Virus record (IMG/VR): IMGVR_UViG_3300047356_000336
Location: 1-38,632 of that record
Origin: a virus
Reading direction: 5' to 3' (one strand)
DNA: 38,632 bases
The translations under genes were made by a program, and so were the position numbers. Positions within the stretch are counted from its first letter, which is position 1. Each line of letters starts with the position of its first letter. Below, piece after piece: positions 18,990 through 35,681 of the stretch. Below the pieces are notes generated by a model, which saw only the letters and a list, made by a program, of their open reading frames with translations, was not told the origin of the DNA and searched no databases.

Positions 18990-19555
18990 TTACTGCTCCT
19001 AAAATAATTTTGTAGATTTCGACGTACATAGTTATAACTATGATGTGTAAAACGTAGTGTAAATAATATTCTATCTTGGTCTGTTTGAATTGGTACACTA
19101 TGGTTCAACGTTATATTTAATAATGCTACTTCGTAAAGTTCGTCTCCGTATCCTTGAAAATTTATAGGAGTTTGACCTCCTTGCAAAACAAGATTGATTT
19201 TACATAATGTACCTGGATCAATATGTAATAAAACTTCTGTATCTTTTTTTTGAGTTAAGAAACTAGGTCTAATTTTATCAGTATTACAAACTTTTTTGAA
19301 TAATTCTATAATACGTTTACTTTCAGAAAGATTAGCATTTTTGCTTTTAGGCTCTCTTGATGCATTCCAAGATGTTTGTTTATCCCACCATTGTTTGTCT
19401 TTTTCAACAAAAGAAAGATTATCATTGTTAGTTTCATTAGATGATCGTGTTAAAAAATTATTATAATTAACAGGTGTATAATTTAGTAACTGTGATTCTT
19501 TTAAAAGTTTTTCTTTATCATAATCAAAATCAAATTTGAACATACACTTTTTCAT
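18986..19555 (-). CDS. Putative 2OG-Fe(II) oxygenase-like protein
   Basis: 189 residues, starts and ends with 4-base overlaps in the operon. The N-terminal half is polar and variable. The C-terminal half has LLHIDPGT (His111, Asp113), NITLNHSVP (His152) and DRILFTLRF (Arg162), the HxD...H...R order of a small 2-oxoglutarate oxygenase. Substrate unknown; sequence identity to its neighbours is low apart from these positions. Confidence 0.6.
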   Translation of the reverse strand: MKKCMFKFDFDYDKEKLLKESQLLNYTPVNYNNFLTRSSNETNNDNLSFVEKDKQWWDKQTSWNASREPKSKNANLSESKRIIELFKKVCNTDKIRPSFLTQKKDTEVLLHIDPGTLCKINLVLQGGQTPINFQGYGDELYEVALLNITLNHSVPIQTDQDRILFTLRFTHHSYNYVRRNLQNYFRSSK

Positions 19556-20259: not shown

Positions 20260-21284
20260 TGTTCATACTTCGCCAAACTGTTGTTAATTTGGTTGTTTAC
20301 ACGAACAAACGTAGTACACTTATATAGCTGTGTTATGTTCTCTGCACCTACATAAGTGCATACACTACGTAAACCGCCTTGTATCTGCTTTAAAATGCTT
20401 TTAATCGACCCTTTACACGGTATTAACAAGTCTCTACCTTCGTTAGGCCTATACTCTTGTTCTGTTGGATTTGTACGATTGTACATAGTTGTACTACCTA
20501 AACCGTAAAAGTTTATATATTTTTTACCATCTATTTCTACAATATTATCACACTCTTCTGACTTAGACACCATACCTGCTATCATTACCATTTTAGCACC
20601 AGCGCCAATTGCTTTACAAATATCGCCAGCAGTAACACATCCGCCATCAGATATAATTCCTACACCATACTTTTGTGCTTCTGTATAACAATCCATAATA
20701 GCACTTAGTTGCGGTACACCTGTACCTACTTCTGAACGTGTTCTACAGGCGGCGCCACTACCAACACCTACTTTAATTAATGTTGCTCCTGCTTTAACAA
20801 ATTTTTGTATAGGACTTGCTGTTGCTACATTGCCAGCACATATTTGTATGTTAGGAAATTTTTCTCTATATAATTTTATTGTATCAATCATACCTTGTAT
20901 ATTAGCATATACATTTGCAATGTCAACATTGATTATTCCGATATCAGGAAACTTACTAATTACTTCGATTGTTTTTTCTCTATCTTGTAAGCGTACACCA
21001 CTAGTAATAGCTATGAACCTTCTATCTTTCATTTTTTCTAATTCATTAATATGCTGTTCAACAGTATATTCTTTGTGTATGAATGTAAAGATGCGTTCTG
21101 GAGTAAGTATATTTGCAATCTTATAAGTACCAGTACTAAGCATATTAGATACTATTACAGGAGTTGCTGTAGTATCTAACCACTCTATTTCAATGTCAAC
21201 ACTTTTACGTGTAAGAGTAATCTCACTCTCACAAGGCTCAATAAGTACATCACTAAAATCTAACTTTAGATCCTTTACTTTCAT
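20256..21284 (-). CDS. GMP reductase / IMP dehydrogenase-family protein
   Basis: 342 residues, close to the usual GMP reductase length. The core matches GuaC: ICAGNVAT near 148-155, VGSGAACRTRSEVGTGVPQL with the catalytic Cys180 loop, and ISDGGC phosphate-binding turn. It lacks the CBS domains of IMP dehydrogenase. GMP reductase turns GMP into IMP using NADPH. In this operon it could divert purine nucleotides or act on a modified nucleotide. Its ATG overlaps the last base of the previous stop. Confidence 0.9.
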   Translation of the reverse strand: MKVKDLKLDFSDVLIEPCESEITLTRKSVDIEIEWLDTTATPVIVSNMLSTGTYKIANILTPERIFTFIHKEYTVEQHINELEKMKDRRFIAITSGVRLQDREKTIEVISKFPDIGIINVDIANVYANIQGMIDTIKLYREKFPNIQICAGNVATASPIQKFVKAGATLIKVGVGSGAACRTRSEVGTGVPQLSAIMDCYTEAQKYGVGIISDGGCVTAGDICKAIGAGAKMVMIAGMVSKSEECDNIVEIDGKKYINFYGLGSTTMYNRTNPTEQEYRPNEGRDLLIPCKGSIKSILKQIQGGLRSVCTYVGAENITQLYKCTTFVRVNNQINNSLAKYEQ

Positions 21285-22216
21285 TAGTACTCGCCTTCGT
21301 TCATCTTAACATGCTCATAGAAAGGTGCTACTTTCCAATCTTTAGTTACTCTCCCTCTACGTACACTACCAGGATCAGGAATACCTACTTCGTTATCTGT
21401 ATCCCAATCGGTTATCTTTACCCATTGCCCTTTGTATCTTTCTTTATTATTAGGATCTAATGGAAACTCAATAGTGCCTGGTTCTACAACATTACTATAT
21501 CGATGAGGCTTACCATAATGACTCCAAATATAATCTTCTGTAAAACCTAATTGATCTGCACATAGTTTTACCATATCTGCCATTTTTAAATTTTCGTCAG
21601 CATCTTTTTGATATCTTCCAAGTTGCCCTACATTCTTAAAACGCAAGGTTATATCAGGAACTTTTTCTCTAGTAATTAAATCAAAGGCGGCTCTTGGAGC
21701 TTCTTCGTTAATACCTTTTACTAAAATTATTCCTGCATTCATATTAAACTTATCTTTACAATTTATAAATGCTTTTATTTTTTTAGTAGCACATCTCATT
21801 TCATCTATCTGTTCGTACCAATCATCGTTATCTATACCGTTCAAACTCATGTATACATGTTTTAGTCCAGTTGCCTCTACTTTATCTACAAAGGGTTGAC
21901 TAGCTAATCGAAGTCCGTTAGTAATTAAGATACAATTATGCCCGTGTTCAAATCCAATTCTTATAAACTCTGTAAGTTCTGGATGAAGAGTTGGCTCCGC
22001 TCCTACAATGCGTAACATAACTGGCTTTGGTAATTTTGCTACAAATTTAGTATATTCAGCTAGTCGCATATCTGGTATAAATCTATTTGGAACATAACAG
22101 TTCTTACACTCCATATTACAACGGTGAGTAATATCAACTACTATATCATAAAACGAATTATTCTCTGGCTCGAGCTCGTAATAATTCATATTGTTAAGAT
22201 CTATGTCTTTGGTCAT
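21284..22216 (-). CDS. Radical SAM enzyme (Fe-S CX3CX2C)
   Basis: 310 residues. The cluster motif is CNMECKNC (Cys33, Cys37, Cys40), followed by VGAEPTLHPE, the SAM-binding motif with Ala in place of the second Gly, and the usual TNGLRL strand. It belongs with MoaA/SPASM-type proteins, but no C-terminal Cys-rich domain is visible, so the reaction is open. A late-like motif (AATAAATA) lies 35 bases upstream on this strand. It is the first gene after the opposite-strand gene that interrupts the operon. Confidence 0.9.
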   Translation of the reverse strand: MTKDIDLNNMNYYELEPENNSFYDIVVDITHRCNMECKNCYVPNRFIPDMRLAEYTKFVAKLPKPVMLRIVGAEPTLHPELTEFIRIGFEHGHNCILITNGLRLASQPFVDKVEATGLKHVYMSLNGIDNDDWYEQIDEMRCATKKIKAFINCKDKFNMNAGIILVKGINEEAPRAAFDLITREKVPDITLRFKNVGQLGRYQKDADENLKMADMVKLCADQLGFTEDYIWSHYGKPHRYSNVVEPGTIEFPLDPNNKERYKGQWVKITDWDTDNEVGIPDPGSVRRGRVTKDWKVAPFYEHVKMNEGEY

Positions 22217-22243
22217 ATTAGGGTTCTCTTTTTTAACTGTTAG

Positions 22244-22251
22244 TATTTATT
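22244..22251 (-). promoter_or_regulatory. Late-promoter-like motif AATAAATA
   Basis: On the minus strand this reads AATAAATA, one mismatch from TATAAATA, 35 bases before the radical-SAM start at 22216. It stands back to back with the plus-strand TATAAATA at 22255-22262. Confidence 0.5.
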
Positions 22252-22254
22252 GCC

Positions 22255-22262
22255 TATAAATA
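22255..22262 (+). promoter_or_regulatory. T4-type late promoter motif (TATAAATA), opposite direction
   Basis: Exact TATAAATA on the plus strand. Using T4 spacing (first T at -13) the transcript would start at 22268, which is an ATG of the plus-strand gene. Confidence 0.6.
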
Positions 22263-22954
22263 TGTACATGTACGATGTGAATAAATGGCAAGAGCTATAT
22301 ACCAACTACCAGCCAAGCAAACATAATGTAGTTGGGTTACCCAATAGATACGATGTAAATTTAGATGAAATTGATAGAGGAATAAAAGATGTTTTAAATA
22401 ATTTTAAAATGATTCCATATACTGTTGACAGTCCTGTAGGGAAACATGTGGTTCCGGGCTACTACGGACTTTGTTTTAAATCAACATTAAATTCTAAAGA
22501 CCCATTAGGGCAAGGATTATCAAGTAATGTACATTCTCATAAAACAATTGATAGTCCAATAGATATTGAATATACAGAAAAGAGTCCTGCTTGGTTTCCT
22601 TATTTAGATGAAGTTGTTAGTAAATTTAAAGGACAAGTAACACAAATAAGATTAATAAAACTAGAAGCTGGACACGATTTACTAAGTCAAGAAAAAACTG
22701 CACATATTGATTATCCTTGGTATAGAGGAATTAGGATGCACATTTGTATTACTCCAGGTGCTGATTATACTTGGAGAGTTTTAGGTAAAGATTATTCTTT
22801 TACAAGGTCAAATAAAATGTTTTATCTTGATACTGGTAAGCCACACGGTGCTGTAAATTCTCACAACAATAACGATAGATATGTTCTTAACTTTAACCTA
22901 ATACCGCATTTAGATAATCATATCGATTACCAAATAGAAAATCAAATTATTTAA
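22262..22954 (+). CDS. Putative 2OG-Fe(II) hydroxylase-like protein, opposite strand
   Basis: 230 residues from ATG 22262; ATG 22268 and TTG 22250 are alternatives, and none has a ribosome-binding site. HxD...H...R is clear: TAHIDYPW (His148, Asp150), GKPHGAV (His195) and DRYVLNF (Arg206), resembling aspartyl/asparaginyl beta-hydroxylase-like proteins. It is the only plus-strand gene in the minus-strand island, convergent with the radical-SAM gene at 22947 (8-base overlap) and divergent from that at 22216. It may be a later insertion or separately timed. Confidence 0.7.
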   Translation: MYMYDVNKWQELYTNYQPSKHNVVGLPNRYDVNLDEIDRGIKDVLNNFKMIPYTVDSPVGKHVVPGYYGLCFKSTLNSKDPLGQGLSSNVHSHKTIDSPIDIEYTEKSPAWFPYLDEVVSKFKGQVTQIRLIKLEAGHDLLSQEKTAHIDYPWYRGIRMHICITPGADYTWRVLGKDYSFTRSNKMFYLDTGKPHGAVNSHNNNDRYVLNFNLIPHLDNHIDYQIENQII

Positions 22955-24458
22955 AAAGAGATAGTTTATGTTGTTTATACTGTTCTATTCTTTTTTTGTT
23001 AACAGAAGAATATTTTCTTTTTAAGTACATTTCATCTAAAGTCAAACTTAACAGTTCTTTTTTATCTTCTGGAAACTTTCCTATATATTCAGTCATATCA
23101 AAATTTGAAAGTCGTTGTTTAAAAAAGTATTTGTTGTGATACATTTCTCCAAACAATGATGCCTCTTTAAAATTAGTAATATCATTTTCCCATACTAACG
23201 CTCTATTATCTAACTTGTTATTAAGTCTTCCCATAGGATCAGCTTTAAAAGGAACGTTATATCCTTTTTCAATAGACCAGTCAAGTACTTCTTGATTTTT
23301 TGTTTCAAAGTAACCAAACTTCTGTGCGTCAACACTAAAGTCACTTTGTGTTTGTGTATCAGGATCATCACTTATATGTAATCCCCAATAGAAGAAACTT
23401 TCCCAGTTTTTATCTAACCAGTCTAAACTATCATACCAAGATTGTACAGGTTCATATGGTAGTCCAGCTATCATTCCACAAGTGCCTCTATATAGACCTA
23501 ATCGATTATTAAATTCGTCCCTAATCCATAACAGCCCTTTTTTAATTTTATCAGGGTGCATACCCTTTCCAATTGCTTTTGCCGCTTGTGGATGAAATGT
23601 TTCTATTCCATAAAAATGTCCCCAACACCTTGCTCTTATCAATAAGTCTACTTGATGTGGTTTTGATATAACTAGATCTAATCTTATGAAACAAGTAAAG
23701 TTAGGTTCAAAAGGAAGTCTTTCAACAGCTAACGCTAATTTTTCAATCTTGTTATCTCTATCATTAAAAGTATCATCACTTATAATATAATTTGTTGTAC
23801 CCCATTTTTCGTAATTACGCATTAGTTCATTATACATATCATCTTCAGATCTACCATAATCTTCTTTGACTCCTAAAAATGCATAATTACAATATTTACA
23901 TTTAAATCTACATCCTCTACTAGTTTCTAATGTTAGTGCTTCATGATTCTCAATAAAATCATGAGAGTGATATTCGCAATCAAATTTATCTATGTCTAGT
24001 CCCGCATACATATGATTAGCATCTACTAGCAAACTATTAGGTGCCCATTCAGGATACCTTCCTTTAGGTTGTTCGCCACCGTCAAACATCCAGTCTAATA
24101 CAGGCAAAAGAGCTTTTTCGCTATAACCAAACACCATACAGTCAGCACCAAAGTCTGTTTGGTATGGCTTAGGTCCTCCTAATAAAAACTTTGAACCTGG
24201 ATATGTTTTTTTCAAAAAACTTATTTTATTTACGACAGTTGTATCTGTCATCCATAGATTACCAAAGGCAAACAAAGTAACTTTATAAGGTAACTGATCA
24301 ACAAACTGTTGTACCTCTTTATCTGACCAATGCTCAACCCAATCTATTATCTCAACTGTCCAGCCAACCTTTCTCATCATATCAGCTACTTTATATGCTC
24401 CCATAGTTCTACGGGTAAGATCCTGTCCACTATCGTTAAAAATTATTGCATTTTTCAT
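22947..24458 (-). CDS. B12-binding-type radical SAM enzyme
   Basis: 503 residues. The N-terminal 140 residues look like a Rossmann, cobalamin-binding-type domain (FLLGGPKPYQTDFGADCMVFGYSE reduced here to FLLGGP and VFGYSE), though the DxHxxG lower-ligand motif is not seen. The radical-SAM core follows with ETSRGCRFKCKYCNY (Cys183, Cys187, Cys190). The family includes methyltransferases and other enzymes acting on unactivated carbons. The C-terminal part is helical and unrecognised. It overlaps the previous gene by 4 bases. Confidence 0.85.
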   Translation of the reverse strand: MKNAIIFNDSGQDLTRRTMGAYKVADMMRKVGWTVEIIDWVEHWSDKEVQQFVDQLPYKVTLFAFGNLWMTDTTVVNKISFLKKTYPGSKFLLGGPKPYQTDFGADCMVFGYSEKALLPVLDWMFDGGEQPKGRYPEWAPNSLLVDANHMYAGLDIDKFDCEYHSHDFIENHEALTLETSRGCRFKCKYCNYAFLGVKEDYGRSEDDMYNELMRNYEKWGTTNYIISDDTFNDRDNKIEKLALAVERLPFEPNFTCFIRLDLVISKPHQVDLLIRARCWGHFYGIETFHPQAAKAIGKGMHPDKIKKGLLWIRDEFNNRLGLYRGTCGMIAGLPYEPVQSWYDSLDWLDKNWESFFYWGLHISDDPDTQTQSDFSVDAQKFGYFETKNQEVLDWSIEKGYNVPFKADPMGRLNNKLDNRALVWENDITNFKEASLFGEMYHNKYFFKQRLSNFDMTEYIGKFPEDKKELLSLTLDEMYLKRKYSSVNKKRIEQYKQHKLSLFK

Positions 24459-25030
24459 TTTTTATATACGGCTTGCCAACAAAGATATGTTTTCCAATCT
24501 CCGTGAGCAGGCAATTCTCCTTTATTAAGAACTACTCTATTATAATTATCAAAAATATCAAAGTCAGATCGCTGAAGCTGAGGGGGTTTATAACCTAAAG
24601 GATTATCTTCGCCTGTCCAAGGATCTCCCACTAGTCTAGCAGATTCATTTATATAAATTCCGCCAGTGTTTAATACACTATCTAACTTTTTAAAATATTC
24701 GTTTTGTTTATCTGTTGGATAAAAATGATAAAAGCCAAAATCTATAACTACATCAAATTTACCTATATTCCATTCTTCTTGTATAAGATCTTTATGTTTT
24801 ATATTTTTAGTTACTGCTTGAGAAATTGCTACATTTGAAAATTCATACCCTACAGCATTATATCCTTTATTAATAAGATACTGTAGATTTCTGCCTTCAC
24901 CACAACCTAAGTCAAGAACTTTGCCTTTTTCCGGAAACATATGTATTACTTCTTTTAAGAAGGTACTAGTAGACTTACCCCAAGCAATGTTTTTACTTGT
25001 GTAGACTTCGTCCCACTTTTTATTATCCAT
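24455..25030 (-). CDS. SAM-dependent methyltransferase (class I)
   Basis: 191 residues from ATG at 25030, which overlaps the previous stop; an upstream in-frame start would cut deeper into that gene. Motif I is VLDLGCGEGRN (38-48), followed by VGYEFS, and the post-II strand FDVVIDFGFYH. The layout is that of small methyltransferases of the tellurite/thiopurine type. Substrate unknown. Confidence 0.85.
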   Translation of the reverse strand: MDNKKWDEVYTSKNIAWGKSTSTFLKEVIHMFPEKGKVLDLGCGEGRNLQYLINKGYNAVGYEFSNVAISQAVTKNIKHKDLIQEEWNIGKFDVVIDFGFYHFYPTDKQNEYFKKLDSVLNTGGIYINESARLVGDPWTGEDNPLGYKPPQLQRSDFDIFDNYNRVVLNKGELPAHGDWKTYLCWQAVYKK

Positions 25031-25598
25031 TAAGGAAATCCTTTTTTGCATTATCAAAATCGTCATCATATGACCATGTAGCTATAACTCTTTGAGTATC
25101 TGTGTAATTAATAACGCCATGCGGAATCTTAGTGTTAAATAAAGTTGGCCCTTGTAATGCAAATTCAAAATCTACTACAGCGTCAGCTACATATTGTACA
25201 TACTGATGTGAATGCCATTCAGCTTCTACATCACCAAAAGTTGTTACAATACTCTTTACTAGTTTTCCTTTTTTACCCATTTGTGTGACTTTAGTTTCAT
25301 CACAATTTTGAATAGGAATATTTATTGCACAACTACGTTGTGTATCAACATGAGTAGGCCATTGTCCTTTATCCATTTTTAATAACTTTATATAAGATTC
25401 TAATTTAGGATATGTGTCTCTTATACTTTTTAAATACGGATCTGATTCAACATCTATAGTAACTGTATCTGTAAATTTACGGAGTGCTTGTACATCACCT
25501 ATGCTTAACCATTCTTCTGTTAAAGTTTCTTTACCTATTTTTTTCATATAATCTTCATCTAAAAGACTAGGTAATGTTAAAATATAATCGTTGTTCAT
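25023..25598 (-). CDS. Putative 2OG-Fe(II) oxygenase-like protein
   Basis: 191 residues from ATG 25598, which overlaps the previous stop (ATGA). HxD...H...R is present: PTHVDTQ (His83, Asp85), KIPHGVIN (His160) and TQRVIATW (Arg170). The length and motif spacing match the other oxygenase-like proteins of the island. Substrate unknown. Confidence 0.65.
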   Translation of the reverse strand: MNNDYILTLPSLLDEDYMKKIGKETLTEEWLSIGDVQALRKFTDTVTIDVESDPYLKSIRDTYPKLESYIKLLKMDKGQWPTHVDTQRSCAINIPIQNCDETKVTQMGKKGKLVKSIVTTFGDVEAEWHSHQYVQYVADAVVDFEFALQGPTLFNTKIPHGVINYTDTQRVIATWSYDDDFDNAKKDFLNG

Positions 25599-26116
25599 AG
25601 CACAAATCCTTTCAAATGCTCTTCGTACAAAGTACATACTTCATTATATGTTTCTTCAAAGCATAACTGGAAAACAATTCTAGTATTATCGTCTTCTGTG
25701 AAGTAAACATTATGAAAGTGTTCACCAGTATTTAACACTGCACCATAGCCGTCATAATTTATCTTTGCAACATTTTCTTCTTTGTCATTATAAAACCATG
25801 TTTCTCCACAATTTTCTGTTAATGGAAAACTAATTACAGTTTGACGTGGCATGTATATATTTTCGTATTCGTTATAACGATTTTTATCCTTGTGTATTTT
25901 ACTACCTGACTCTGATACTTTTAATATTTGACATACACAGTCTAAACCAGTTGTGTTAAATTTTTGTATAGTACTAGGTAATTTAAAGAAACTTATTTTA
26001 TAACTTATATCTATAAATGCATCAGGAGTAAGAGCTATATCTAAAAGCTCTTGCTTTGTAGAATCGCCTATTGCATAAGGAATGGTTCTATAATAAGGAT
26101 CACAGTTCTGTAGCAT
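25595..26116 (-). CDS. Putative 2OG-Fe(II) oxygenase-like protein
   Basis: 173 residues, 17-base overlap with the aminotransferase gene. The motif is KIHKDKN (His75, Asp77), then PRQTVISFPL, GEHFHNV (His133/135) and NTRIVFQL (Arg146). The gene directly upstream of another member of this kind (25023-25598) suggests duplication or sequential hydroxylation. Confidence 0.65.
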   Translation of the reverse strand: MLQNCDPYYRTIPYAIGDSTKQELLDIALTPDAFIDISYKISFFKLPSTIQKFNTTGLDCVCQILKVSESGSKIHKDKNRYNEYENIYMPRQTVISFPLTENCGETWFYNDKEENVAKINYDGYGAVLNTGEHFHNVYFTEDDNTRIVFQLCFEETYNEVCTLYEEHLKGFVL

Positions 26117-26933
26117 ACTGTTCTTTTTTATCTTTATATTTTGATACTAGTAAATGTGTAACGTCTCCAGTTACAGTAGTAGGCGTTACTCCACCGCTTG
26201 AACTTGTAATAAAAGTCTCGTCTGCTGACATGAACATTTCTTGTGTAATTGGCATACGTTTAAAAGAAATATTATTTTCGTTAGCAATATCTTCAACTAC
26301 GCTCATAGTAATGCCTTTTAAAACATTTTTATCTGCTGTATAGATTGCACCATCTTTAACAATACCCACATTAAATCCCGGTCCTTCTGTTACATGGCCA
26401 TCTATATCAACAAGCACAGTTGTATCATAGCCTGCTGGTGTGTTGCGTTGACTCATTGTTAAGTCTATCCAAGCCATATTTTTATATTCTTGTCCGTAAT
26501 AGTCATCATTAACTCTATTAGTTTTCTTATCTAAGTAAAGTCTTACTAATGGTGTACTTGCTATAGGATAACTTGGTTTGATATACATAGCAAAGTTTAC
26601 AGGACAATTTTCTAAGTCTCTTGGATTACCACTAGGCGGGAATCCTCTCCAGATTAAAAACCATACAAATGCATTATCAATTGGATTACGCTTTGCAAGT
26701 TCTTTAATAATCTCTAGAGGATCAACGTCTGGAATAGTAAGCCCGTAACGTTCTGCACTATTCTTAAATCTTTCTAAGTGTCTTTCGTAACAAAATGCTT
26801 TACCGTTATAAACTGGCATTACATCATATGTAGCATCACAATGAATAAACCCAAAGTCGAGTATACTTGGTCCAATTTCTCCTAGTGGTTTATATTCACC
26901 GTTTTTATATGCTATTAAGTCTAATACGTTAGT
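26100..26933 (-). CDS. Class-IV PLP aminotransferase (branched-chain/D-amino-acid type)
   Basis: 277 residues from ATG 26933, which overlaps the previous stop. The PLP lysine is Lys152 in EYKNMAW, Glu184 is in VTEGPGFNVG (the family has a Glu here), and SSSGGVTP near the C-terminus matches the phosphate-binding end. It moves an amino group between an amino acid and a keto acid, or eliminates from one, as in aminodeoxychorismate lyase. It could provide or process an amino-acid unit of the island product. Confidence 0.9.
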   Translation of the reverse strand, partial: TNVLDLIAYKNGEYKPLGEIGPSILDFGFIHCDATYDVMPVYNGKAFCYERHLERFKNSAERYGLTIPDVDPLEIIKELAKRNPIDNAFVWFLIWRGFPPSGNPRDLENCPVNFAMYIKPSYPIASTPLVRLYLDKKTNRVNDDYYGQEYKNMAWIDLTMSQRNTPAGYDTTVLVDIDGHVTEGPGFNVGIVKDGAIYTADKNVLKGITMSVVEDIANENNISFKRMPITQEMFMSADETFITSSSGGVTPTTVTGDVTHLLVSKYKDKKEQYATEL

Positions 26934-27192
26934 CATCAAAATGTACCTTTTGTAGTTGGGGGTCATCAGGCAGTTGTTTCTTAAGTTTTTTTAATCTATT
27001 GATTCTCCATTCTAATAATTTAAAATCAAGTACCCAAGGAAAAACTGCATGAATTAAACTTCCTATACAAACTAGTAATAGGAAAAAGAATTCTTTTATT
27101 GCCAAACCAAAATGCCACCAATAACCTGCTGTAGGTTTGCCAGCTTTTGTTTTTGCTTCATTTAAATGTTTAGGATTTAGCCACGTACTCAT
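26929..27192 (-). CDS. Small membrane protein, DUF6356-like
   Basis: 87 residues, overlapping the GNAT-like gene by 23 bases. It has the HLNEAK... YWWHFGLAIKEF entry, a hydrophobic stretch about 28-56 (FFLLLVCIGSLIHAVFPWVL region) and a basic helical tail. The SLIHAVFPW phrase is like DUF6356 proteins. It is probably a membrane hairpin, and could anchor enzymes of the island. Confidence 0.6.
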   Translation of the reverse strand: MSTWLNPKHLNEAKTKAGKPTAGYWWHFGLAIKEFFFLLLVCIGSLIHAVFPWVLDFKLLEWRINRLKKLKKQLPDDPQLQKVHFDD

Positions 27193-27727: not shown

Positions 27728-28353
27728 GGATATAAAAAATTGTTTGTAACAAACTCCACTGTTTCTTTGTTTATGATTACATTTACAACAATCATATAGC
27801 TAGGGTTTTGACTAGCATTAAAAAGATAATGCATCTTAGCAGTATCTACAAAATATACAACACCGTTTTTAAAGTTTTGTATTTTATCTTCTATAACAAA
27901 ATTAAAACAAGGTGGTTCAATATTACGTAAAGGAATAATAAGTCTATATGTTTTAAAAATGTCTCTTGTAAAATCTCTGTGAGGAGGAAAATATCCGCCG
28001 CTGTTTAGTTTTAATACATGCGTTCTACATATATAATCTTTAATAGGATCAAGAACCTCTTTAACACTAGGAAAATCATAAACAGGAGTAGGTGTTTTAA
28101 AATGTTGTTCGTAATATTGTGTGTTATTTTCTTTATTATAATTTGGAAGACTATCTAAGTCTGGTGTACCACTTAATCCGCCATCAAGACTTGTAATACT
28201 TAGTCCCCATCTATCAATTTCTTTACGAGGATTATATCTTACATAGTCAAAATTTTCTTCTGTCCAATCAACAAACTTGTCTACATTAGACATTGTGTAT
28301 CTAGTTTCATACACTGTACCGTATGCTGTAAGATTTTGATATAAGTCTAACAT
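27724..28353 (-). CDS. Aspartyl/asparaginyl hydroxylase-like 2OG-Fe(II) protein
   Basis: 209 residues. This is the clearest of the set: LNSGGYFPPHRDFTR (His125, Asp127), then YRLIIPLRN, and AKMHYLFNAS (His175). PHRD followed by a late His is the aspartyl/asparaginyl beta-hydroxylase-type pattern. Substrate unknown. It overlaps both neighbours by 4-7 bases. Confidence 0.75.
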   Translation of the reverse strand: MLDLYQNLTAYGTVYETRYTMSNVDKFVDWTEENFDYVRYNPRKEIDRWGLSITSLDGGLSGTPDLDSLPNYNKENNTQYYEQHFKTPTPVYDFPSVKEVLDPIKDYICRTHVLKLNSGGYFPPHRDFTRDIFKTYRLIIPLRNIEPPCFNFVIEDKIQNFKNGVVYFVDTAKMHYLFNASQNPSYMIVVNVIINKETVEFVTNNFLYP

Positions 28354-28931
28354 AATTTACCTACTATTAAATACCTAATGCCACGTGAATCTTTTATTTC
28401 GTCTTCAACTGTCACGGTTGCATTATCTGGCAGTTGATCTTTAAATTCTTGAATACTACTTACACAGTTAGTATGTCCTTCAATATCGTACATGTTGTTT
28501 GAAGTGAATGCAAAATATGCTTTAGATGTTTTTAATGCATCTAACGTTTTCATAGAAGGCATGTGTTCGCAAGAAGGATTAATTATAAGATCAGCGTTCA
28601 TAATTCTTCCGTGTCTTTTTTTGTCAAACACATCACTTGCTATATAATCAATATTGTTATAATGACTAAACAACCTGTTTTTAGATATACTTATAGCAGT
28701 ATCATCTAAATCAATTATTGTAATTCTTTTTACATGTTTAAAAAACGGAACTAATATACTGCCGTACCATCCACCTAAAATTACAATTTCACTGTTAGTA
28801 TCTACAAATTGATTAACATTGTCTACTATTTTTTCTTTTGCTTTAAATTGATTTGGGCTATAAGAATCTAGTAACGTTGAATTGTTCCTAGCTTCAGCCA
28901 TAATATTTTTAAATAGTTGTAAATCTATCAT
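28347..28931 (-). CDS. SAM-methyltransferase-like Rossmann protein
   Basis: 194 residues. VILGGWYGSILVPFF (50-64) is a glycine-rich nucleotide loop, followed by ITIIDLDDTAI with the acidic ribose ligand, and INPSCEHM. This is like class I methyltransferases, with a sequence not typical of small-molecule members. No substrate motif seen. It follows the carbamoyltransferase by a 4-base overlap. Confidence 0.6.
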   Translation of the reverse strand: MIDLQLFKNIMAEARNNSTLLDSYSPNQFKAKEKIVDNVNQFVDTNSEIVILGGWYGSILVPFFKHVKRITIIDLDDTAISISKNRLFSHYNNIDYIASDVFDKKRHGRIMNADLIINPSCEHMPSMKTLDALKTSKAYFAFTSNNMYDIEGHTNCVSSIQEFKDQLPDNATVTVEDEIKDSRGIRYLIVGKLC

Positions 28932-30391
28932 TTGCTAACCATCTTATTATCTATTACAAGTATATCAATTGCAGTTTCTTCGTAAGTTTCATATGCTTCG
29001 TATGGGTTTTCTACAATAGGTTCTTGGCAGTTAAAGCTAGTATTCAGTAACATTGGTATTCCAGTAATTTTATAAAACTCATTAATAAGATCATAAAACT
29101 TTTCGTTTTGTGTTCGATTAACTGTTTGTATTCTTGCTGTATTGTCTACATGTGTTACACCTGGAATCTTATCTGATTTTACTGGCATAATCCTACTCAT
29201 GTACGGACTTGGTTGATTAGTATCAAAATATTCTTGGTAATATTCTTCTAACACACTTGGAGCAAACGGTCTAAAGTCTTCACGCTTTTTAATAGTAGTA
29301 TTAATAATATTTTTTATGTTAGGGTTCCGAGGATCAGCAAGTATACTACGATTTCCTAATGCTCTGTTACCGCTTTCAGATAACCCTTGGAACCATCCAA
29401 CAATTTTTCCGTTTGCAATATCTTGTGCAACTTTCTTTATATCCAAATCAATAAAATTATCAGATAGCACATAATCAAAATGTTTACCTGATGCTGTTTT
29501 AGGTAAGTGTATATTTTTGTTTAGTACATAATCGGCATGCATATATGTGCCAAGTGCTTGTCCTTCATCACCAACTGCTGGCGGAATATGTACATTAGTA
29601 TAATGTTTAGTAAACATTTCATTTACATAACCGTTATATGCAACACCTCCTGCTACACATAAGTTGTCACAAGTTTTTAAAGGATACACATATTTTTTGA
29701 TTAAGTCTTCAGTTACCCATTGTAGTGTATAAGCAACATCTTCTTTTAAATGTCTATCTAAAACTTTCTTTGACCATTCTGGTAGTGTAAAGTCATTGTT
29801 CATATAATAATCAATTAAAGCATGTATTTGATAATCGTACTGACCGTAACCTGCTAGACCCATAACTTTACCGGCACCTAAGTAACCAAATCCTAAGTCT
29901 TGTGATAGTCTGTTCCACAATCCGCCAATTGATAGTTTATCTGATAAGTCGTGTATATGTCCGTGCTTGTCGATAAACACGCAATTAAATTTCCAACCTT
30001 TACCGTCAATAGCAAGTATGTCTGACTGTTCGTACTTAGAACTTAAAAAAGCGTATGCGGCATGACTTTGATGATGGTCAATATAATAAAAGTCTTGCCC
30101 TTGATGGTAGTCCCATAAGTTAGTAGGTTTAAAATCTAAAAATTCTTTTGTACCAAACTTTTCTTCAATAAGATCAATTACAAACTCTTGTCCAAGATTA
30201 GAAACTGTAAAGCATAATGTTTCATCTTCTGTTTTTACATACTGTTCAAAGAATTCTCTACTAGGTTTGCCGTCATGCGGATCTGTGTTCAAGTTATGCT
30301 TTCTACGAGTATGTCTTTCAACTTGTAAATGCGTCTTTCCGTTATACGTATTATGGTCGTGCATATTAAGTGCTACAGAAAATAGTTTCAT
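28928..30391 (-). CDS. NodU/CmcH-family carbamoyltransferase
   Basis: 487 residues. The N-terminal Kae1-like domain has IDHHQSHAAYAF (HHQSH 106-110, metal/carbamoyl-AMP site) and LAIDGKG. The middle CVAGGVAYN and the C-terminal YrdC-like segment with SGNRALGNRSILADPR and LLNTSFNCQEPIV are the classic family motifs. The family carries a carbamoyl group from carbamoyl phosphate to hydroxyls of sugars or antibiotics, as in Nod factor and cephamycin. Length is slightly short of the common 560-600 residues. GAGGAAATAAAATG is a good ribosome-binding site. One of the most informative genes for the product. Confidence 0.93.
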   Translation of the reverse strand: MKLFSVALNMHDHNTYNGKTHLQVERHTRRKHNLNTDPHDGKPSREFFEQYVKTEDETLCFTVSNLGQEFVIDLIEEKFGTKEFLDFKPTNLWDYHQGQDFYYIDHHQSHAAYAFLSSKYEQSDILAIDGKGWKFNCVFIDKHGHIHDLSDKLSIGGLWNRLSQDLGFGYLGAGKVMGLAGYGQYDYQIHALIDYYMNNDFTLPEWSKKVLDRHLKEDVAYTLQWVTEDLIKKYVYPLKTCDNLCVAGGVAYNGYVNEMFTKHYTNVHIPPAVGDEGQALGTYMHADYVLNKNIHLPKTASGKHFDYVLSDNFIDLDIKKVAQDIANGKIVGWFQGLSESGNRALGNRSILADPRNPNIKNIINTTIKKREDFRPFAPSVLEEYYQEYFDTNQPSPYMSRIMPVKSDKIPGVTHVDNTARIQTVNRTQNEKFYDLINEFYKITGIPMLLNTSFNCQEPIVENPYEAYETYEETAIDILVIDNKMVSK

Positions 30392-31221
30392 TTTATTTCC
30401 TCTAATGCTATTTTTTCTAGTATTGCCTGCCTACGTACTTTAGGTCGAGGCGGAATAATATCCATACACACTGTACAATATTTTTCAAACTGGAATAAGT
30501 CATGTTCCATCATTTTAGTAATATTTTCTACTGTAATATCAAACTCACGTGATCCGTTAATTGCTTTTCTACTACAATGTCTAATCTTTTGTATTTCAAA
30601 ATCAAACACAGGTACTTGAGGAAACTTAGCACAAATACGTCTTTCTAATTCAGGTGCTTGTACAAGTTCGTGATCACTAAAGAAATCAGGCGAACGTGAA
30701 TTATATTCTTTAAATTCTGTATTTTTATGATCAATATGACTTATATCGTGCTTGTCTCTATATGCAAAATAACCAGGTGTTTCAATAATAAGATTATAGT
30801 TGTTTAAGTCGTTAGGTTTAAACCAATCATAGTTTCCTAGTTTTTCAATTTTATCTTCGTAAAAGTCTAATATTAAGTGTTCAATATAGATGACTTCAGG
30901 ATCTTCAAGTATGTGTGGATAAAACTTACGTACTAAACTATTAGATAATACTTGTGGAATTAGATTAGGATATTTTTTAATTTCTGCTATAATCTCATCT
31001 AAGTTTTTAATAAGTCCGGGTTCGCCGCCTAATAAACAGATACGTGTTTTGTAAGGAGCAAGTCCCTTTAGAATAGTACGAACTAGATCCATATCTGTGT
31101 GTAGGTATCGCATTTCTAAAGTCCACGCAGTACAATAATGACAAGACTTGTTGCAAGACTTTGACAAGTAAAAGTCTACTGTTCTATATTCTGATCCTTT
31201 TAATTCTTCAAGTGTTATCAT
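30388..31221 (-). CDS. Radical SAM enzyme with C-terminal Cys pair
   Basis: 277 residues. The cluster motif is CNKSCHYC (Cys23, Cys27, Cys30), then LLGGEPG. The C-terminal part has RHCSRKA and KYCTVCMD, which could bind an auxiliary cluster, SPASM-like but shorter. Proteins of this sort modify peptides or small molecules. It overlaps the carbamoyltransferase start by 4 bases. Confidence 0.85.
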   Translation of the reverse strand: MITLEELKGSEYRTVDFYLSKSCNKSCHYCTAWTLEMRYLHTDMDLVRTILKGLAPYKTRICLLGGEPGLIKNLDEIIAEIKKYPNLIPQVLSNSLVRKFYPHILEDPEVIYIEHLILDFYEDKIEKLGNYDWFKPNDLNNYNLIIETPGYFAYRDKHDISHIDHKNTEFKEYNSRSPDFFSDHELVQAPELERRICAKFPQVPVFDFEIQKIRHCSRKAINGSREFDITVENITKMMEHDLFQFEKYCTVCMDIIPPRPKVRRQAILEKIALEEIK

Positions 31222-31222
31222 A

Positions 31223-31981
31223 TTATTCGTCAGTTTCTTCTAAATGATATTTGATAATATCTTCTAAAGCAGGTTTTGTTTCTGCTCCTCTTTCAAGAAG
31301 AGGCACGTTTGGATTATCAATGTTTGTAGCAAGCATATCTGCAATGTTTGCTTTATAGCCAATCTGTGCTACAATAATAGGCATTTCTTTTATATAAGGT
31401 AAAGCACTCCAATCTATACCAGAACCTTTGTTAGTGTCTTTATGATATTCATTTCTTATACCTTTCCAGCTCCATTCTGGGAATGATTTTATATAACTGA
31501 TCTGTAAGTCATTTTCTAAACACTGACCAGCAAGTATCTTTAAAAACATGCCAACTTCGATACAGGCAAGTTTACTATTGGTAGGTCCGCGAAATCGTTC
31601 ATCTATTTGTGTAAATCTTTTTTCTCCGCCTTTGTATTTCGTTCCGTGTTTTACTATAAAATCATTTGGTTCACACTTCCGCAATTCAAATATCAGCACC
31701 CAAGGTGCTTTGTGATTTGGATGAGGCGCTTCTTCCATCTGCCATTGATTTACTGATCCATTTTTAAATAAAGCACAAATTTTGCCTACTATGTGATTAT
31801 CTTTGTTATTTTTAGGACCAATAATATGAATCTTAAATGGAAATAAATTTTGCTTAGAAGGAGCCACATCAAAAGTTGTTTCAATAAGACTGTGGATAAG
31901 TTCCTTACTAGGAATACGTTCTTGATCCCATGCCCATCTTATTTGTCTGCGTTTTTTAAAAAGTTCGTATATTTTTGACAC
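31223..31981 (-). CDS. Nitroreductase-like protein, copy A
   Basis: 252 residues from GTG 31981, after AAGGA. RRQIRWAWDQERIPSKELI, then APSKQNLFPFKI, matches the FMN-binding N-terminus of nitroreductases. IEVGMFLKILAGQCLEN and IVAQIGYK follow the family's dimer helix and last strand. The family includes flavin enzymes that reduce nitro groups or oxidise azoline rings, and BluB-like enzymes. Copy B is at 33072-33764, with the DegT gene between. Confidence 0.75.
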   Translation of the reverse strand: MSKIYELFKKRRQIRWAWDQERIPSKELIHSLIETTFDVAPSKQNLFPFKIHIIGPKNNKDNHIVGKICALFKNGSVNQWQMEEAPHPNHKAPWVLIFELRKCEPNDFIVKHGTKYKGGEKRFTQIDERFRGPTNSKLACIEVGMFLKILAGQCLENDLQISYIKSFPEWSWKGIRNEYHKDTNKGSGIDWSALPYIKEMPIIVAQIGYKANIADMLATNIDNPNVPLLERGAETKPALEDIIKYHLEETDE

Positions 31982-32001
31982 GTTGATTCCTTAATTTCAA
32001 T

Positions 32002-33075
32002 CTATAAAGCATTTTTTACATTGTTAATAATACTTATTACTTCATCCTCAGTAAGCCAAGCATGAATGGGCAACGACAAAACAGTATCAGATGCCGTTTT
32101 AGATTGCATACAATCGTCTCTCCTGTGTTCTATACTATCGTACATACTATTAGCACTTAAAGGTGTTTCGTAGTGTATACTGGCACTTAGAGCAGTTTTT
32201 ACACGTTTCCTTGTGTCTTTGTCTTTGAAACGGACTACATATTTGTGGTAGTTATGGTTAAGCCCATTTGACATTGTTTGTGTTACCACAGGTAAATTAC
32301 TAAATGCTGTATTGTATTCTTGTGCTATTTGTTGTCTGCGTTCTTGATTACGTTCAGTATGTCTTAATCTTAAATTAATAATTTCTGCATTTAACACATA
32401 CATACGACTGTTATATCCTAGTATACTAAAGTCTTTGTCTTTGCCATGGCGTCTAATCATTTTTACGCGACGAGCAATATCTTCGTTATCTGTTAATACA
32501 ACTCCGCCACCATTGATGCCAGCAATAACTTTATTTGAGTTAAAACTATATACTGAACAATCTCCAATAGTACCTGCTTTTATATTATGTAAACTACTAC
32601 CCAAACTTTGTGCGGCATCTTCAATAAACAATATATCTTTGTCTTTACAAAATTGTTGTAGCTCTGTAGTATCAGTCATGTTACCAAATAGATGTGGATA
32701 AATTATTGCTTTTACTTTATCACTGTACATACGTTTAACACTATCTAAACTAATGTGATATGAATCTAAATCAATGTCACAGAACACAGGAACAGCGCCT
32801 ACCATACTAGCACAAGCTGAACTTGAAATCCAACTAAAATTTGTTACTAGCACTTCGTCGCCTAGACCAATGTTGTGTGCTAGTAGTGTAAAATGAAGAG
32901 CGTCTGTAGCACTTGCTACACTAACACAATGTTTACGCCCAACACGTTCAGCAAAACCACTTTCAAAGTCCTCATTATTTTCATAATTTGTTTGACTCAT
33001 AAAACGATCAAACACTTCTAAATAGTCTTGTTTGTTTTCTTGATATTCTCTATCCCAAGCATCATATGCTGTCAT
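32002..33075 (-). CDS. DegT/DnrJ/EryC1-type PLP aminotransferase
   Basis: 357 residues. The PLP lysine is Lys182 in YSFNSNKVIAGINGGG, a variant of the SFHxxK...GEGG motif; FIEDAAQSLG (150-159) and VASATDALHF (53-62) are typical. This family makes amino sugars from keto sugars, or amino-cyclitols. With the carbamoyltransferase and glycosyltransferase-like genes it points to a sugar-like or cyclitol product. Confidence 0.93.
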   Translation of the reverse strand: MTAYDAWDREYQENKQDYLEVFDRFMSQTNYENNEDFESGFAERVGRKHCVSVASATDALHFTLLAHNIGLGDEVLVTNFSWISSSACASMVGAVPVFCDIDLDSYHISLDSVKRMYSDKVKAIIYPHLFGNMTDTTELQQFCKDKDILFIEDAAQSLGSSLHNIKAGTIGDCSVYSFNSNKVIAGINGGGVVLTDNEDIARRVKMIRRHGKDKDFSILGYNSRMYVLNAEIINLRLRHTERNQERRQQIAQEYNTAFSNLPVVTQTMSNGLNHNYHKYVVRFKDKDTRKRVKTALSASIHYETPLSANSMYDSIEHRRDDCMQSKTASDTVLSLPIHAWLTEDEVISIINNVKNAL

Positions 33076-33764
33076 GCTGTGTTCCTTTGACTATTATCAA
33101 CAAAATTAAAAATATCTTCAAATGGAGCATCAGTATCTGTTTTTAATCTTTCTGGATGATAGAACTGCCATTTATATTTTTCAGCTTTTCCAATAGTTTG
33201 TATAAGGTCAGGGTAAAAATCTATGTAGGGGAAATCTTTCCAGTCCTCCATATTTTTAGGAAGACAAACTGTATACGAAGAATCCCATCCTCTGTCTAAT
33301 ACAGCACCGGTTACTGTTTTAGCAAGCATACCAACTTCTATGGAGTTAGAAGATCTATTACGTGTATTAATAAATGTTGGATCTTCTAATTGCCATTTTG
33401 ATTTTTCTCTTTCAAAGTTTCCTTTATGAAAAGGGTTTGGTGGTGCTATTCTAGGAGTATATATAATAGTGTAAGGAGCACTTAATATATGATAAAGTCC
33501 TGGGTTAGATCTATAGGCTTCGTCACTGTCGCCAAATTCTTCTTCGTCAGTTCGAATTTTGTTACCTTCGCACATATTCCAAAGTTTTCTGCTTCTTGCC
33601 TTATTAGGTCCTAGTATATGTGCTTTGTATGCATATGCTTTTTGTTTAGATGTAACAAGAGGATATGCAGTTTGCAGTATTTCAAAAATTTCAGCTTCTG
33701 TAGGTATTACATCTTCACAGTATTTCCATACATGGGCTCTTCGTGAAAGAGAATCTTCAATCAT
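33072..33764 (-). CDS. Nitroreductase-like protein, copy B
   Basis: 230 residues from ATG 33764, chosen because GGAG precedes it by 8 bases; the longer open frame lies over the previous gene's end. LVTSKQKAYAYKAHILGP parallels the APSKQNLFPFKIHIIGP segment of copy A, and SIEVGMLAKTVTGAVLDRG parallels its dimer helix. It is more divergent and lacks the double-Arg entry, so it may have lost or changed flavin chemistry. The two could act as a heterodimer. Confidence 0.6.
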   Translation of the reverse strand: MIEDSLSRRAHVWKYCEDVIPTEAEIFEILQTAYPLVTSKQKAYAYKAHILGPNKARSRKLWNMCEGNKIRTDEEEFGDSDEAYRSNPGLYHILSAPYTIIYTPRIAPPNPFHKGNFEREKSKWQLEDPTFINTRNRSSNSIEVGMLAKTVTGAVLDRGWDSSYTVCLPKNMEDWKDFPYIDFYPDLIQTIGKAEKYKWQFYHPERLKTDTDAPFEDIFNFVDNSQRNTA

Positions 33765-33768
33765 AATA

Positions 33769-34494
33769 TTAACTCCATGGTGCCCGACGCCAGTTTTCAA
33801 GTTCTTTTGACATATGCCCAATCCATTCTTTCTTAACCCGATCTTGCAAATGTTTTTTATCTGGAGATGTAAGTTTAAAATCTACATTCTTTCTTAACAA
33901 TGGATTATCAGGATTAAATCCTCTATTTGTGTTTACAAATAATAGAGCAAAGTTTTCCTCTTTAGCAATTTCTATAGCACGGTCAACTTCGTGTTCGTTG
34001 TAACCAAATATAATATACTGCCAAACAATAGTATGCCCGAGGTCTCTGCCTAGTTTCATCATTTCCCAGACATTTTCAAAGTTTGATCCAATTCTATAAA
34101 GTTCGCTCTTTTTATCAATACCGTCTACACCAAAGTACCAAGCGTTTGTGTTCTTACCGTAACTATATGCTTGTTTCCACCAATCTAAAGATTGTCCACT
34201 TCCGTTAGTAGCAATACGTACTTGCTTACCATCAGACATTTCTAAAAATTTTAAAAAATTAGGATGATATATAGGGTCGGAAATTTGTCCGCAAAATGTA
34301 ATACCTTTATAATAATCTAATATTTTTTGAAAGTTTTTTTCTTCTAGATCAAAAGATCTACGTATTTGATCTTGACTAGATATTTTTTGACGAATACACT
34401 GTGGGCATTTCAAAATACATCGATGCGAAATGTCTAGGTTAGGCCTAGACCATACCTGTTGTTCTACGTAATTATTAGTAATTCTTTCCGACAC
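33769..34494 (-). CDS. Radical SAM core protein, paired with separate SPASM-like ORF
   Basis: 241 residues from GTG 34494. CX3CX2C is HRCILKCPQC (Cys26, Cys30, Cys33). The GGE-like SAM motif is replaced by FCGQISDP. There is no C-terminal auxiliary-cluster domain, but the gene directly upstream (34475-34834, 20-base overlap) encodes a Cys-rich protein of that kind. Together they look like one enzyme in two pieces. Confidence 0.8.
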   Translation of the reverse strand: MSERITNNYVEQQVWSRPNLDISHRCILKCPQCIRQKISSQDQIRRSFDLEEKNFQKILDYYKGITFCGQISDPIYHPNFLKFLEMSDGKQVRIATNGSGQSLDWWKQAYSYGKNTNAWYFGVDGIDKKSELYRIGSNFENVWEMMKLGRDLGHTIVWQYIIFGYNEHEVDRAIEIAKEENFALLFVNTNRGFNPDNPLLRKNVDFKLTSPDKKHLQDRVKKEWIGHMSKELENWRRAPWS

Positions 34495-34834
34495 GTTGTT
34501 TTACACTCTCTAATTTTTCTTCTAGTTTACGAATATTATGCTCATCTTCTGTAAGTTCAACACCACACTTTTTCTTACACATATACGAACATTCATCTGG
34601 GGCATTGTAAAGTTTTTGAAAAAAGTTTTCCCATTGATCACTTGTAAAGATATCTTCTAATTTTTCATTATTTGCTAAAGCAAGTTCTGGGTCTTTTAAT
34701 CCTGCCTTAATAATATGATTTAATACAGGAGGATCATCCATCCAGCAACAAGGTAACATAAAGCCGTCACTAGTGTAAGCGGCTCCTTTTCGATCTCTTT
34801 CACCAAATGCTAAACACTTTGGCCTAATTTTCAT
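34475..34834 (-). CDS. SPASM/twitch-like auxiliary iron-sulphur protein
   Basis: 119 residues, ribosome-binding site GGAGGAATTAA. Cys-rich: one near residue 7, a PCC pair (about 29-30), and CSYMCKKKC near 79-87. DGFMLPCCWMDDPP followed by LEDIFTSDQWENFF is the usual SPASM-domain phrase. Radical-SAM maturases carry this domain at the C-terminus, but here it is a stand-alone ORF ahead of the core ORF. Confidence 0.75.
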   Translation of the reverse strand: MKIRPKCLAFGERDRKGAAYTSDGFMLPCCWMDDPPVLNHIIKAGLKDPELALANNEKLEDIFTSDQWENFFQKLYNAPDECSYMCKKKCGVELTEDEHNIRKLEEKLESVKQRVGKNY

Positions 34835-35681
34835 TTAATTCCTCCACTACTTTTACAATAGGTGTTACATCTGGTTCTTTACAATCACGCCTCCAATATA
34901 CACTACCACCGTCTTGTATATTTTTATCTCTAAGGTACACTACATCTTTTCCATAGTATTTACACTCTTGAAAAATTCTTGGAGCAGGATCGAATGTTTC
35001 TTTGGTGTATACATATGTTTCAAACAAGCTCATAAGATTTTCTACTGGTACAAATATATTATTATTCTTTATATTAACATACTTTTCATCATATGTCAAG
35101 ATCCCATGGTCAGGATAATTATCAATAACTTTTTCAACACTAGTATAGTATTCTGGGTTTGTGCCTAAAAACAAGTGTTTGAACTGTATGTTATCTTTGT
35201 GTGGTTTGTATATACTAAAATTAATAGTTTTTTCGAAATGAGCGCCAGCGCCATTAGGATAAACTTCGGTATCGCAAAGGTCTACTATTTGTTTAGGATT
35301 ATAAAACTTAACAGCCTTAGGATAACCATCTACATGATTTTCAGAATATACGCTAATGATATCACCATCAAACAAGCGATATAATATACGTTTTTGTATA
35401 TCTGTATAATCATTAAAACTTTGCCAACTAAGTGTCATCATACTACGGCCCATAATAAGTGTAATATCATTTAGTGCCGGAACATAATCGTCAATAATTA
35501 TATTTTGACAATGTATATATTTGTTGCTAATTGAATCTAGATAATCTTCTTTAGTAAAGTTTCGATGTGTTATAACAACAACCTGTGCAGAATAACCAGC
35601 TTTGTTAAGCATATCACAGTATTCATAACTGTAATAGAATAAGCCGTCAACTGGTTTGCTTGTTACAACAATGTTAATCAT
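34824..35681 (-). CDS. GT-B-like glycosyltransferase candidate
   Basis: 285 residues. INIVVTSKPVDGLFYYSYEY opens like a GT-B donor/acceptor domain. Near the C-terminus PVENLMSLFETYVYTKETFDPAPR resembles the late GT-B nucleotide-sugar region, without a clean EX7E. Function is not proved. Upstream glycosyltransferase- and SGNH-type genes support a sugar-linked role. Confidence 0.45.
   Translation of the reverse strand: MINIVVTSKPVDGLFYYSYEYCDMLNKAGYSAQVVVITHRNFTKEDYLDSISNKYIHCQNIIIDDYVPALNDITLIMGRSMMTLSWQSFNDYTDIQKRILYRLFDGDIISVYSENHVDGYPKAVKFYNPKQIVDLCDTEVYPNGAGAHFEKTINFSIYKPHKDNIQFKHLFLGTNPEYYTSVEKVIDNYPDHGILTYDEKYVNIKNNNIFVPVENLMSLFETYVYTKETFDPAPRIFQECKYYGKDVVYLRDKNIQDGGSVYWRRDCKEPDVTPIVKVVEELNEN

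Follow-up and report, generated by a model that had tools for sequence, protein, structure and literature searches.

Analysis of the 38,632-bp virus record IMGVR_UViG_3300047356_000336 (the whole stretch of DNA, hereafter the window) revealed two minus-strand genes, A and B, whose products share common ancestry, fall into separate clades of one viral family, lie in the same gene cassette and differ at residues that map to the flavin site of nitroreductases. Our preferred reading, to which we assign a probability of roughly 40%, is that A and B are diverged paralogs acting as separate tailoring oxidoreductases in an island of the surface-glycan type: A would be a dimeric enzyme that uses flavin mononucleotide (FMN) and reduced nicotinamide adenine dinucleotide (phosphate) (NAD(P)H), and B a protein with a rebuilt flavin site. 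The original prediction, made from the letters of the window, had described divergent nitroreductase-like proteins on either side of a DegT-type aminotransferase gene, and had proposed either a heterodimer or a duplicated enzyme with changed function. The open reading frames (ORFs) lie as described (Table 1): B overlaps the DegT gene by 4 nucleotides (nt), the gap between DegT and A is 20 nt, and no further gene stands between A and B.

Two paralogs with a nitroreductase fold

A and B are 24% identical over 206 amino acids (aa) by BLASTP (E 1e-15), and A as a query against the window record recovers B at E 7.8e-12, which bears out the claim that they are related though diverged. In Pfam, A scores 17.7 bits to Nitroreductase (PF00881), below the gathering cut-off of 23.5, and B has no match, so neither is called a member of that family; PHROGs returned no family for A or B at E values up to 0.1. 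Some relatives of A and B do reach the PF00881 cut-off, and one of them (L006:6977-7675, 47.2 bits) provides a transitive link to recognized members. The profile A6 matches structure 3gfa at E 3.8e-9.

Models predicted from an alignment of 95 viral relatives have a mean predicted local distance difference test score (pLDDT) of 88.6 for A and 94.8 for B. The A model aligns with 3of4 (VIA-align Z 15.7, 3.6 Å over 191 residues) and the B model with 3gbh (Z 16.7, 3.2 Å over 187 residues). By title, the 50 Foldseek matches listed for A and for B are all nitroreductases or their kin, including NAD(P)H:FMN oxidoreductases, NADH oxidase, NfrA1, a BluB-like flavoprotein and putative oxidoreductases. 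Because the B model matches nitroreductases with Z scores up to 16.7, B is assigned the nitroreductase fold, so that the outcome named in the original prediction as refuting it did not occur, and a B unrelated to nitroreductases is ruled out by the model and its structure matches. By predicted fold and by descent, both proteins fall within the nitroreductase-fold superfamily.

A viral family of seven clades

Relatives came mostly from scans of viral contigs, one of which contributed the best 80 of 181 confirmed stretches. After merging per contig, 97 loci were searched (the window, one locus of Pelagibacter phage Mosig and 95 viral loci), and four rounds of hidden Markov model searches yielded a family of 187 ORFs in marine phage contigs, present as one copy in 39 loci, two in 34, three in 16 and four in 8. 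Exclusion of 4 ORFs shorter than 180 aa left 183 for the clade counts, which reduced to 107 proteins at 90% identity. Clade lists drawn by hand from the tree of these 107 comprise A (17 proteins), B (21), C (14), D (12), E (24), F (9) and G (5), with 5 rows unplaced; clades A and B have 100/100 support each.

Both clades are under purifying selection, with median ratios of nonsynonymous to synonymous substitution rates (dN/dS) of 0.20 (84 A pairs) and 0.29 (196 B pairs), although synonymous distances are near saturation for many pairs. Comparison of the window with its relative L058 gives a dN/dS of 0.33 for A; for B, taken as the longer TTG-initiated ORF, it is 0.17. These ratios and the presence of clade B in 41 contigs disfavour B as a decaying pseudogene.

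Among 50,697 phage records, Mosig was the sole match to A, B and an E-clade protein used as queries, and a D-clade query found no match in the same records. A host origin was considered and rejected: of 197 genomes from the family of the Pelagibacter metagenome-assembled genome G021, only G021 itself matched, and the ORFs of its matching contig resemble the phage cassette by eye; the scan of genome contigs relied on two degenerate patterns only.

Residues at the flavin site

Positions were mapped from Escherichia coli NfsB by a profile alignment (E 4.6e-5, probability 68.7) that stops short of the C-terminus. NfsB R10, S12, K14, S39, S40 and N42 align with R11, Q13, R15, S42, K43 and N45 of A, and with R9, H11, W13, S39, K40 and K42 of B. 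The structural alignments end at residue 246 of A and 222 of B, equivalent to NfsB-type residue 217; because they end there, and assuming no gap, A K236 and B D212 would fall on NfsB position 207. Asn42 of NfsB is taken by us to be an FMN contact. A published description of a Klebsiella pneumoniae NfsB model assigns Arg207 and Lys205 to the FMN phosphate, Arg10, Ser12 and Ser39 to the ribityl chain and Lys14 to the pyrimidine, with Glu165/Gly166 contacting N5/O4 (PMC10805014).

The comparison of FMN contacts proposed in the original prediction came out differently for the two proteins. A carries RRxxR and PSxxN motifs and appears to retain NfsB Arg10, Lys14, Ser39, Asn42 and Arg207 or their equivalents; A is probably an FMN oxidoreductase. 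B keeps R9, S39 and K40 and is altered at three positions of the same set (Lys14 to Trp13, Asn42 to Lys42, Arg207 to Asp212), and is therefore not filed as an FMN nitroreductase enzyme.

Residue counts across 95 of the 107 dereplicated proteins (the other 12 being 4 unplaced rows, 5 from clade G and a single one from each of clades A, C and F) extend this difference to the clades. R11, R15, S42, N45 and K236 occur in 16/16 clade A rows, with Gln13 at the Ser12 position. In clade B, column 45 (the Asn of the PSKQN loop) is Lys in 19 of the 21 rows, and column 236 is neither Lys nor Arg in 19 (Asp 13, Arg 2, Lys 0 of 21). The window B and that of L059 show the Lys/Asp pair. Of the two clade B rows that keep Asn at 45, one shows Arg at 236 (L077) and the other Cys, and a further row (L014) combines Lys at 45 with Arg at 236; because of these exceptions, the exchange of Lys between columns 45 and 236 is not strictly reciprocal. 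Asn at 45 and a basic residue at 236 are found in 10/13 and 13/13 rows of clade C (Lys/Arg), 23/24 and 23/24 of clade E (Lys) and 8/8 for both in clade F; the more distant clade D has Asn at 45 in 9/12 and no Lys/Arg at 236 in the residue alignment. Column 166 is Ser (15) or Thr (1) in clade A, and Cys in all rows of clades B (21/21), F (8/8) and D (12/12), in 12/13 of C and in 23/24 of E.

B could instead be flavin-free and non-catalytic, a paralog whose retained fold serves a partner or scaffold role. The C-terminal basic residue and the loop Asn are each lost in 19/21 rows, the latter to Lys, and Trp stands where the N-terminal Lys/Arg stood. We regard this as unlikely: R9, S39 and K40 are kept, as is the loop Cys at column 166, clade B evolves under purifying selection, and the new Lys may stand in for the old one. 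Lys/Arg at column 15 is moreover mostly absent from clades C, E and F too, so that change is not special to B.

Separate clades, purifying selection and different residue states at the FMN-mapped positions support the changed-function duplicate of the original prediction, and B is changed relative to A in sequence. On our preferred reading, B would have been born from an ancient duplication and its flavin site rebuilt by loss of the C-terminal Lys and gain of a Lys in the PSKQ(N/K) loop; because of such rebuilding, B may bind flavin differently or serve another substrate.

Gene order and the question of a heterodimer

Nitroreductases form dimers, and their flavin sits close to the interface. 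K. pneumoniae NfsB is described as a homodimer (PMC10805014). An A–B heterodimer, the other explanation first proposed, would form dimer-shared flavin sites from one intact and one altered half. In the survey, A occurs in 23 contigs and is never the sole paralog (0/23); its companions are B (15 contigs), D (13), C (9) and E (7). These counts are descriptive, since A and B seeded the search and the contigs are incomplete and in part redundant. For distance tests, 6 of the 23 A contigs were removed as duplicates (five pairs 94.2-100% identical over 8-19 kb, and L021, which derives from the same virus as the window). A and B protein distances then correlate with r 0.74 (12 contigs; p 0.0012, a one-sided raw value with many pairs tried). 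Both observations would suit a heterodimer, as would the 72.8-kb record of the window's virus (L021, G006), which contains no third paralog, and the divergence of the window lineage, in which identity to the counterparts is 46-55% for A and B and 68-85% for DegT, as if A and B were changing together.

Several findings speak against such a pairing. B occurs without A in 26 of its 41 contigs (11 of them with only B and E), and A without B in 8/23; B is the only paralog in 8; these are contigs or stretches spanning 1.4-10 kb, and a cut-off copy is present as well in two. When the window lineage is removed, the A–B correlation falls to r 0.29 (p 0.10), and to 0.14 when L034 is also left out, so that general A–B co-evolution, first seen at r 0.74 to 0.75, was rejected and the signal traced to one lineage. 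The window B groups with B proteins of the A-less loci L013, L014 and L078 (99/91 support). Among the 15 contigs with both genes, the order is B-A in 4, B-C-A in 4, B-DegT-A in 3, B-IsoC-DegT-E-A in 3 (near-identical to one another; IsoC, isochorismatase-like gene) and A-B in 1. B-DegT-A is the order of the window itself, of L021 (99.99% identical to the window over 16.4 kb, the same virus) and of L058 (88.9%), and so is known from two viruses. A conserved unit of a pair around DegT was rejected on these grounds. With B often lacking A, the order rare and the correlation coming from one lineage, an A–B-specific heterodimer is unsupported, and we consider it quite unlikely.

The B-DegT-A order is lineage-specific and not a general rule of the family. 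From sequence comparison, A and B look to have jointly diverged, or to have been exchanged once, in the window lineage, beside a DegT protein up to 85% identical to those of other phages. Most likely, two members of a multiplied family in a glycan-type island stand here in an order peculiar to one lineage, and their position around DegT would be incidental.

Clades C (16 contigs) and E (54 contigs) never occur in the same contig, as if filling one slot. Further distance correlations include A–C (0.67), B–methyltransferase (0.65), A–D (0.17) and B–C (0.03).

Cassette neighbours and alternative roles

The loci are partial; a cassette marker (DegT, a carbamoyltransferase or the radical S-adenosylmethionine (SAM) protein rSAM1) is present in 50/97 and the ribonucleotide reductase gene nrdB in 20/97. 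A typical cassette locus holds, in order, a 285-aa protein, SPASM/rSAM2, DegT, paralogs, rSAM1, carbamoyltransferase and methyltransferase. Neighbours of 137 paralog blocks were set against the expectation from 2000 shuffles with random placement within these loci. Radical SAM/SPASM genes border 66 blocks (32.2 expected), or 68 (39.2 expected) when unlabelled cluster members with CxxxCxxC are added; DegT, a group that includes 11 unlabelled ORFs of about 100 aa, adjoins 25 (8.5 expected), an isochorismatase-like family 49 (12.8 expected) and nrdB 31 (5.6 expected). None of the shuffles reached the observed counts for these enriched neighbours.

The frequent contact with radical SAM/SPASM genes raises the alternative that the paralogs are NAD(P)H-FMN redox partners passing electrons to the iron-sulfur clusters of these neighbours. 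Distances of A track those of SPASM (r 0.66) and rSAM2 (0.57), and still do so at 0.57 and 0.55 (p 0.03) once the window lineage is removed. B tracks SPASM (0.64) and carbamoyltransferase (0.46); without the window lineage, B–SPASM falls to 0.24, B–DegT rises to 0.38 (p 0.04), and B–rSAM2, at 0.04, argues against the alternative. Furthermore, no ferredoxin- or flavodoxin-like part was seen, no labelled radical SAM gene adjoins a paralog in the 20 nrd loci, and clade-specific pocket residues suggest differing substrates. We judge the redox-partner role rather unlikely.

In 20 loci, the order NrdA-NrdB-E or a cut-off part of it places nitroreductase-like genes inside the phage ribonucleotide reductase operon. 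A B-clade gene lies between nrdA and nrdB at L013 (2617-8634), L014, L016, L017, L018, L019, L078, L084, L085 and L086. The 165-kb record G003 has four paralogs at three places: the first is nrdA-B-nrdB-E, the second a D copy beside radical SAM genes, and the third an E-like copy whose cassette includes glycosyltransferase-like and epimerase-like genes (these gene names, and the clades of the last two copies, by eye).

The isochorismatase-like small family (L013:8086-8634 and 54 relatives) shows weak similarity to its namesake, 18.2 bits against a cut-off of 27, and has Cys111 in 55/55. In 48 cases its gene comes immediately after a paralog, and in 40 of these the two genes overlap by 8-13 nt. 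Such pairing of isochorismatase-like and nitroreductase-like genes recalls RutB/RutE.

A role of the family in nucleotide or cofactor metabolism, not glycans, could explain the NrdA-(B)-NrdB-E loci, the enrichment of nrdB and the position of the isochorismatase-like gene directly after E in 37/60 cases. Clade A, however, is never found in the nrd setting (24/24 examined), and the window pair is surrounded by DegT, radical SAM and carbamoyltransferase genes, which makes this role very unlikely in our estimate. A further reading would treat the paralogs as a virus-born family that has become an interchangeable set of oxidoreductase subunits, with A bearing flavin and always needing another member (B, C, D or E) beside it, C and E swapping, and B carrying a relocated lysine; together with radical SAM/SPASM proteins they would yield a carbamoylated amino-glycan, and the nrd-operon copies would perform another redox task. 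We hold this to be decidedly improbable.

Several points weigh against separate tailoring enzymes in a glycan-type island. Clades B and E also occur outside the cassette, E after nrdB in 20 loci and B between nrdA and nrdB in 10 of these, and 27/97 loci, partial as they are, have neither cassette markers nor nrdB. Carbamoyltransferase is not enriched beside paralogs (8 blocks, 8.8 expected), and distances of A and B do not track DegT (r 0.05, 0.09); those to rSAM1 (-0.04, 0.08) and the 285-aa gene (0.06, 0.05) are similar. Finally, the placing of K236 on NfsB Arg207 reflects the end register of structural alignments of predicted models and not a residue-by-residue alignment.

The surrounding genes of the window

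The run of minus-strand genes reads, in order, 285-aa protein, SPASM, rSAM2, B, DegT, A, rSAM1, carbamoyltransferase and small methyltransferase (Table 1).

Table 1. Genes of the cassette around A and B; positions refer to the window.
Feature	Position	Strand	Length	Remarks
A, nitroreductase-fold protein, clade A	31223-31981	minus	252 aa	
B, nitroreductase-fold protein, clade B	33072-33764	minus	230 aa	altered FMN-site residues W13, K42, D212
DegT/DnrJ/EryC1/StrS-family pyridoxal 5'-phosphate (PLP) aminotransferase	32002-33075	minus	357 aa	PF01041; Lys182 in SFNSNK
rSAM1, radical SAM protein	30388-31221	minus		directly downstream of A
NodU/TobZ-type O-carbamoyltransferase	28928-30391	minus		
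Small methyltransferase-like cassette protein	28347-28931	minus		
rSAM2, radical SAM core protein	33769-34494	minus		directly upstream of B
SPASM-like iron-sulfur protein	34475-34834	minus		separate gene upstream of rSAM2; PF13186 18.7 bits, cut-off 21.5
Cassette protein	34824-35681	minus	285 aa	glycosyltransferase-like by eye only

A starts with GTG, preceded by AAGGA. The ATG of B at 33764 lies 4 nt past the stop of the upstream gene; the alternative longer ORF (TTG, to 33821) extends into that radical SAM gene. The DegT product is a clear PF01041 member (277.6 bits, cut-off 19.8) whose SFNSNK motif holds the PLP lysine, Lys182; its nearest solved structures are glutamine-scyllo-inositol transaminase 7b0d, QdtB and perosamine synthetase, and it reached no NCBIfam equivalog cut-off. 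A viperin-like identity of rSAM1 was rejected, with a weak match of 27.8 bits against a cut-off of 180, and a family search with the 285-aa protein gave no match.

At 33769-34834 a radical SAM core and a SPASM-like domain are split into overlapping genes, with SPASM first. Distances of the two genes correlate with r 0.92 (13 loci). A PP-loop ATPase-like protein (by eye) adjoins SPASM/rSAM2-like genes at L131:2253-3113 and L041:10872-11717, in records with D- or A-clade paralogs. Elsewhere in the window, a second minus-strand cluster at 19552-26966 encodes AMP-binding, IMP dehydrogenase/GMP reductase-like and class IV aminotransferase proteins and two radical SAM proteins, one of which has a weak B12-binding match; at 8634-9701, a QueE-like radical SAM protein (phrog_2076, 172.8 bits) is a sign of 7-deazaguanine chemistry.

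Relation to known systems and proposed role

A and B resemble the FMN nitroreductase superfamily (E. coli NfsB, 3gbh, 3of4, 3gfa and iodotyrosine deiodinase 6pz0) over nearly the whole chain in predicted fold, but are 9-21% identical to its members among the structural alignments listed and stay under the PF00881 cut-off. They differ from it further in a loop Ser-Lys where NfsB has Ser-Ser, in the family-specific Arg101, Ser162-Tyr163 and Trp191 found in most rows of clades A, B, C, E and F, and, for most of clade B, in the missing C-terminal basic residue. The nitroreductase fold also occurs in AlbA of the cyclodipeptide oxidase AlbAB, whose structure 8uc3 matches B with Z 15.6 and A with Z 14.8. 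According to PMC11055893, AlbA acts in a hetero-oligomer with AlbB, a protein without homology to any characterized family, whereas A and B both have the nitroreductase fold.

Mosig_00082 and Mosig_00093 of Pelagibacter phage Mosig EXVC030M, annotated as 'putative nitroreductase domain-containing protein', belong to the same family (clades F and G). The Mosig cassette resembles that of the window in its DegT, radical SAM, carbamoyltransferase and methyltransferase genes; unlike the window, it has neither protein in clade A or B, and several genes separate each from DegT. The published host recognition cluster of pelagimyophages is a variable island in which tail fibres and glycosyltransferases occur together with radical SAM cassettes (PMC7029224). 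The window island is likeliest of this class. The main text of that paper contains none of the words nitroreductase, carbamoyl and aminotransferase. In the open-licence PubMed Central literature we found no paper joining a Pelagibacter phage with a nitroreductase, nor one combining nitroreductase, carbamoyltransferase and radical SAM in a phage or auxiliary metabolic context.

For the window we propose that members of a viral nitroreductase-fold family multiplied inside a host-recognition island, of the surface-glycan type, in marine T4-like phages. A would be an ordinary FMN-dependent, NAD(P)H-using oxidoreductase whose dimer acts on a cassette intermediate, either a sugar or an aminocyclitol, which it may reduce or dehydrogenate next to radical-SAM steps; the DegT enzyme would add an amino group and the NodU/TobZ-like enzyme a carbamoyl group. 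BtrN/BtrS in butirosin biosynthesis, where a radical SAM dehydrogenase feeds a DegT aminotransferase, is a precedent for such a sequence.

The findings suggest that phages infecting marine bacteria, probably SAR11, carry a family of redox enzymes that PHROGs and Pfam overlook in the case of A and B. Mosig is the one cultured phage among the matches, and single phages carry up to four copies that differ at the flavin site. These copies form a natural series on how the nitroreductase fold is retuned or loses its cofactor, and raise the question of what such phages build with DegT, carbamoyltransferase and radical SAM enzymes.

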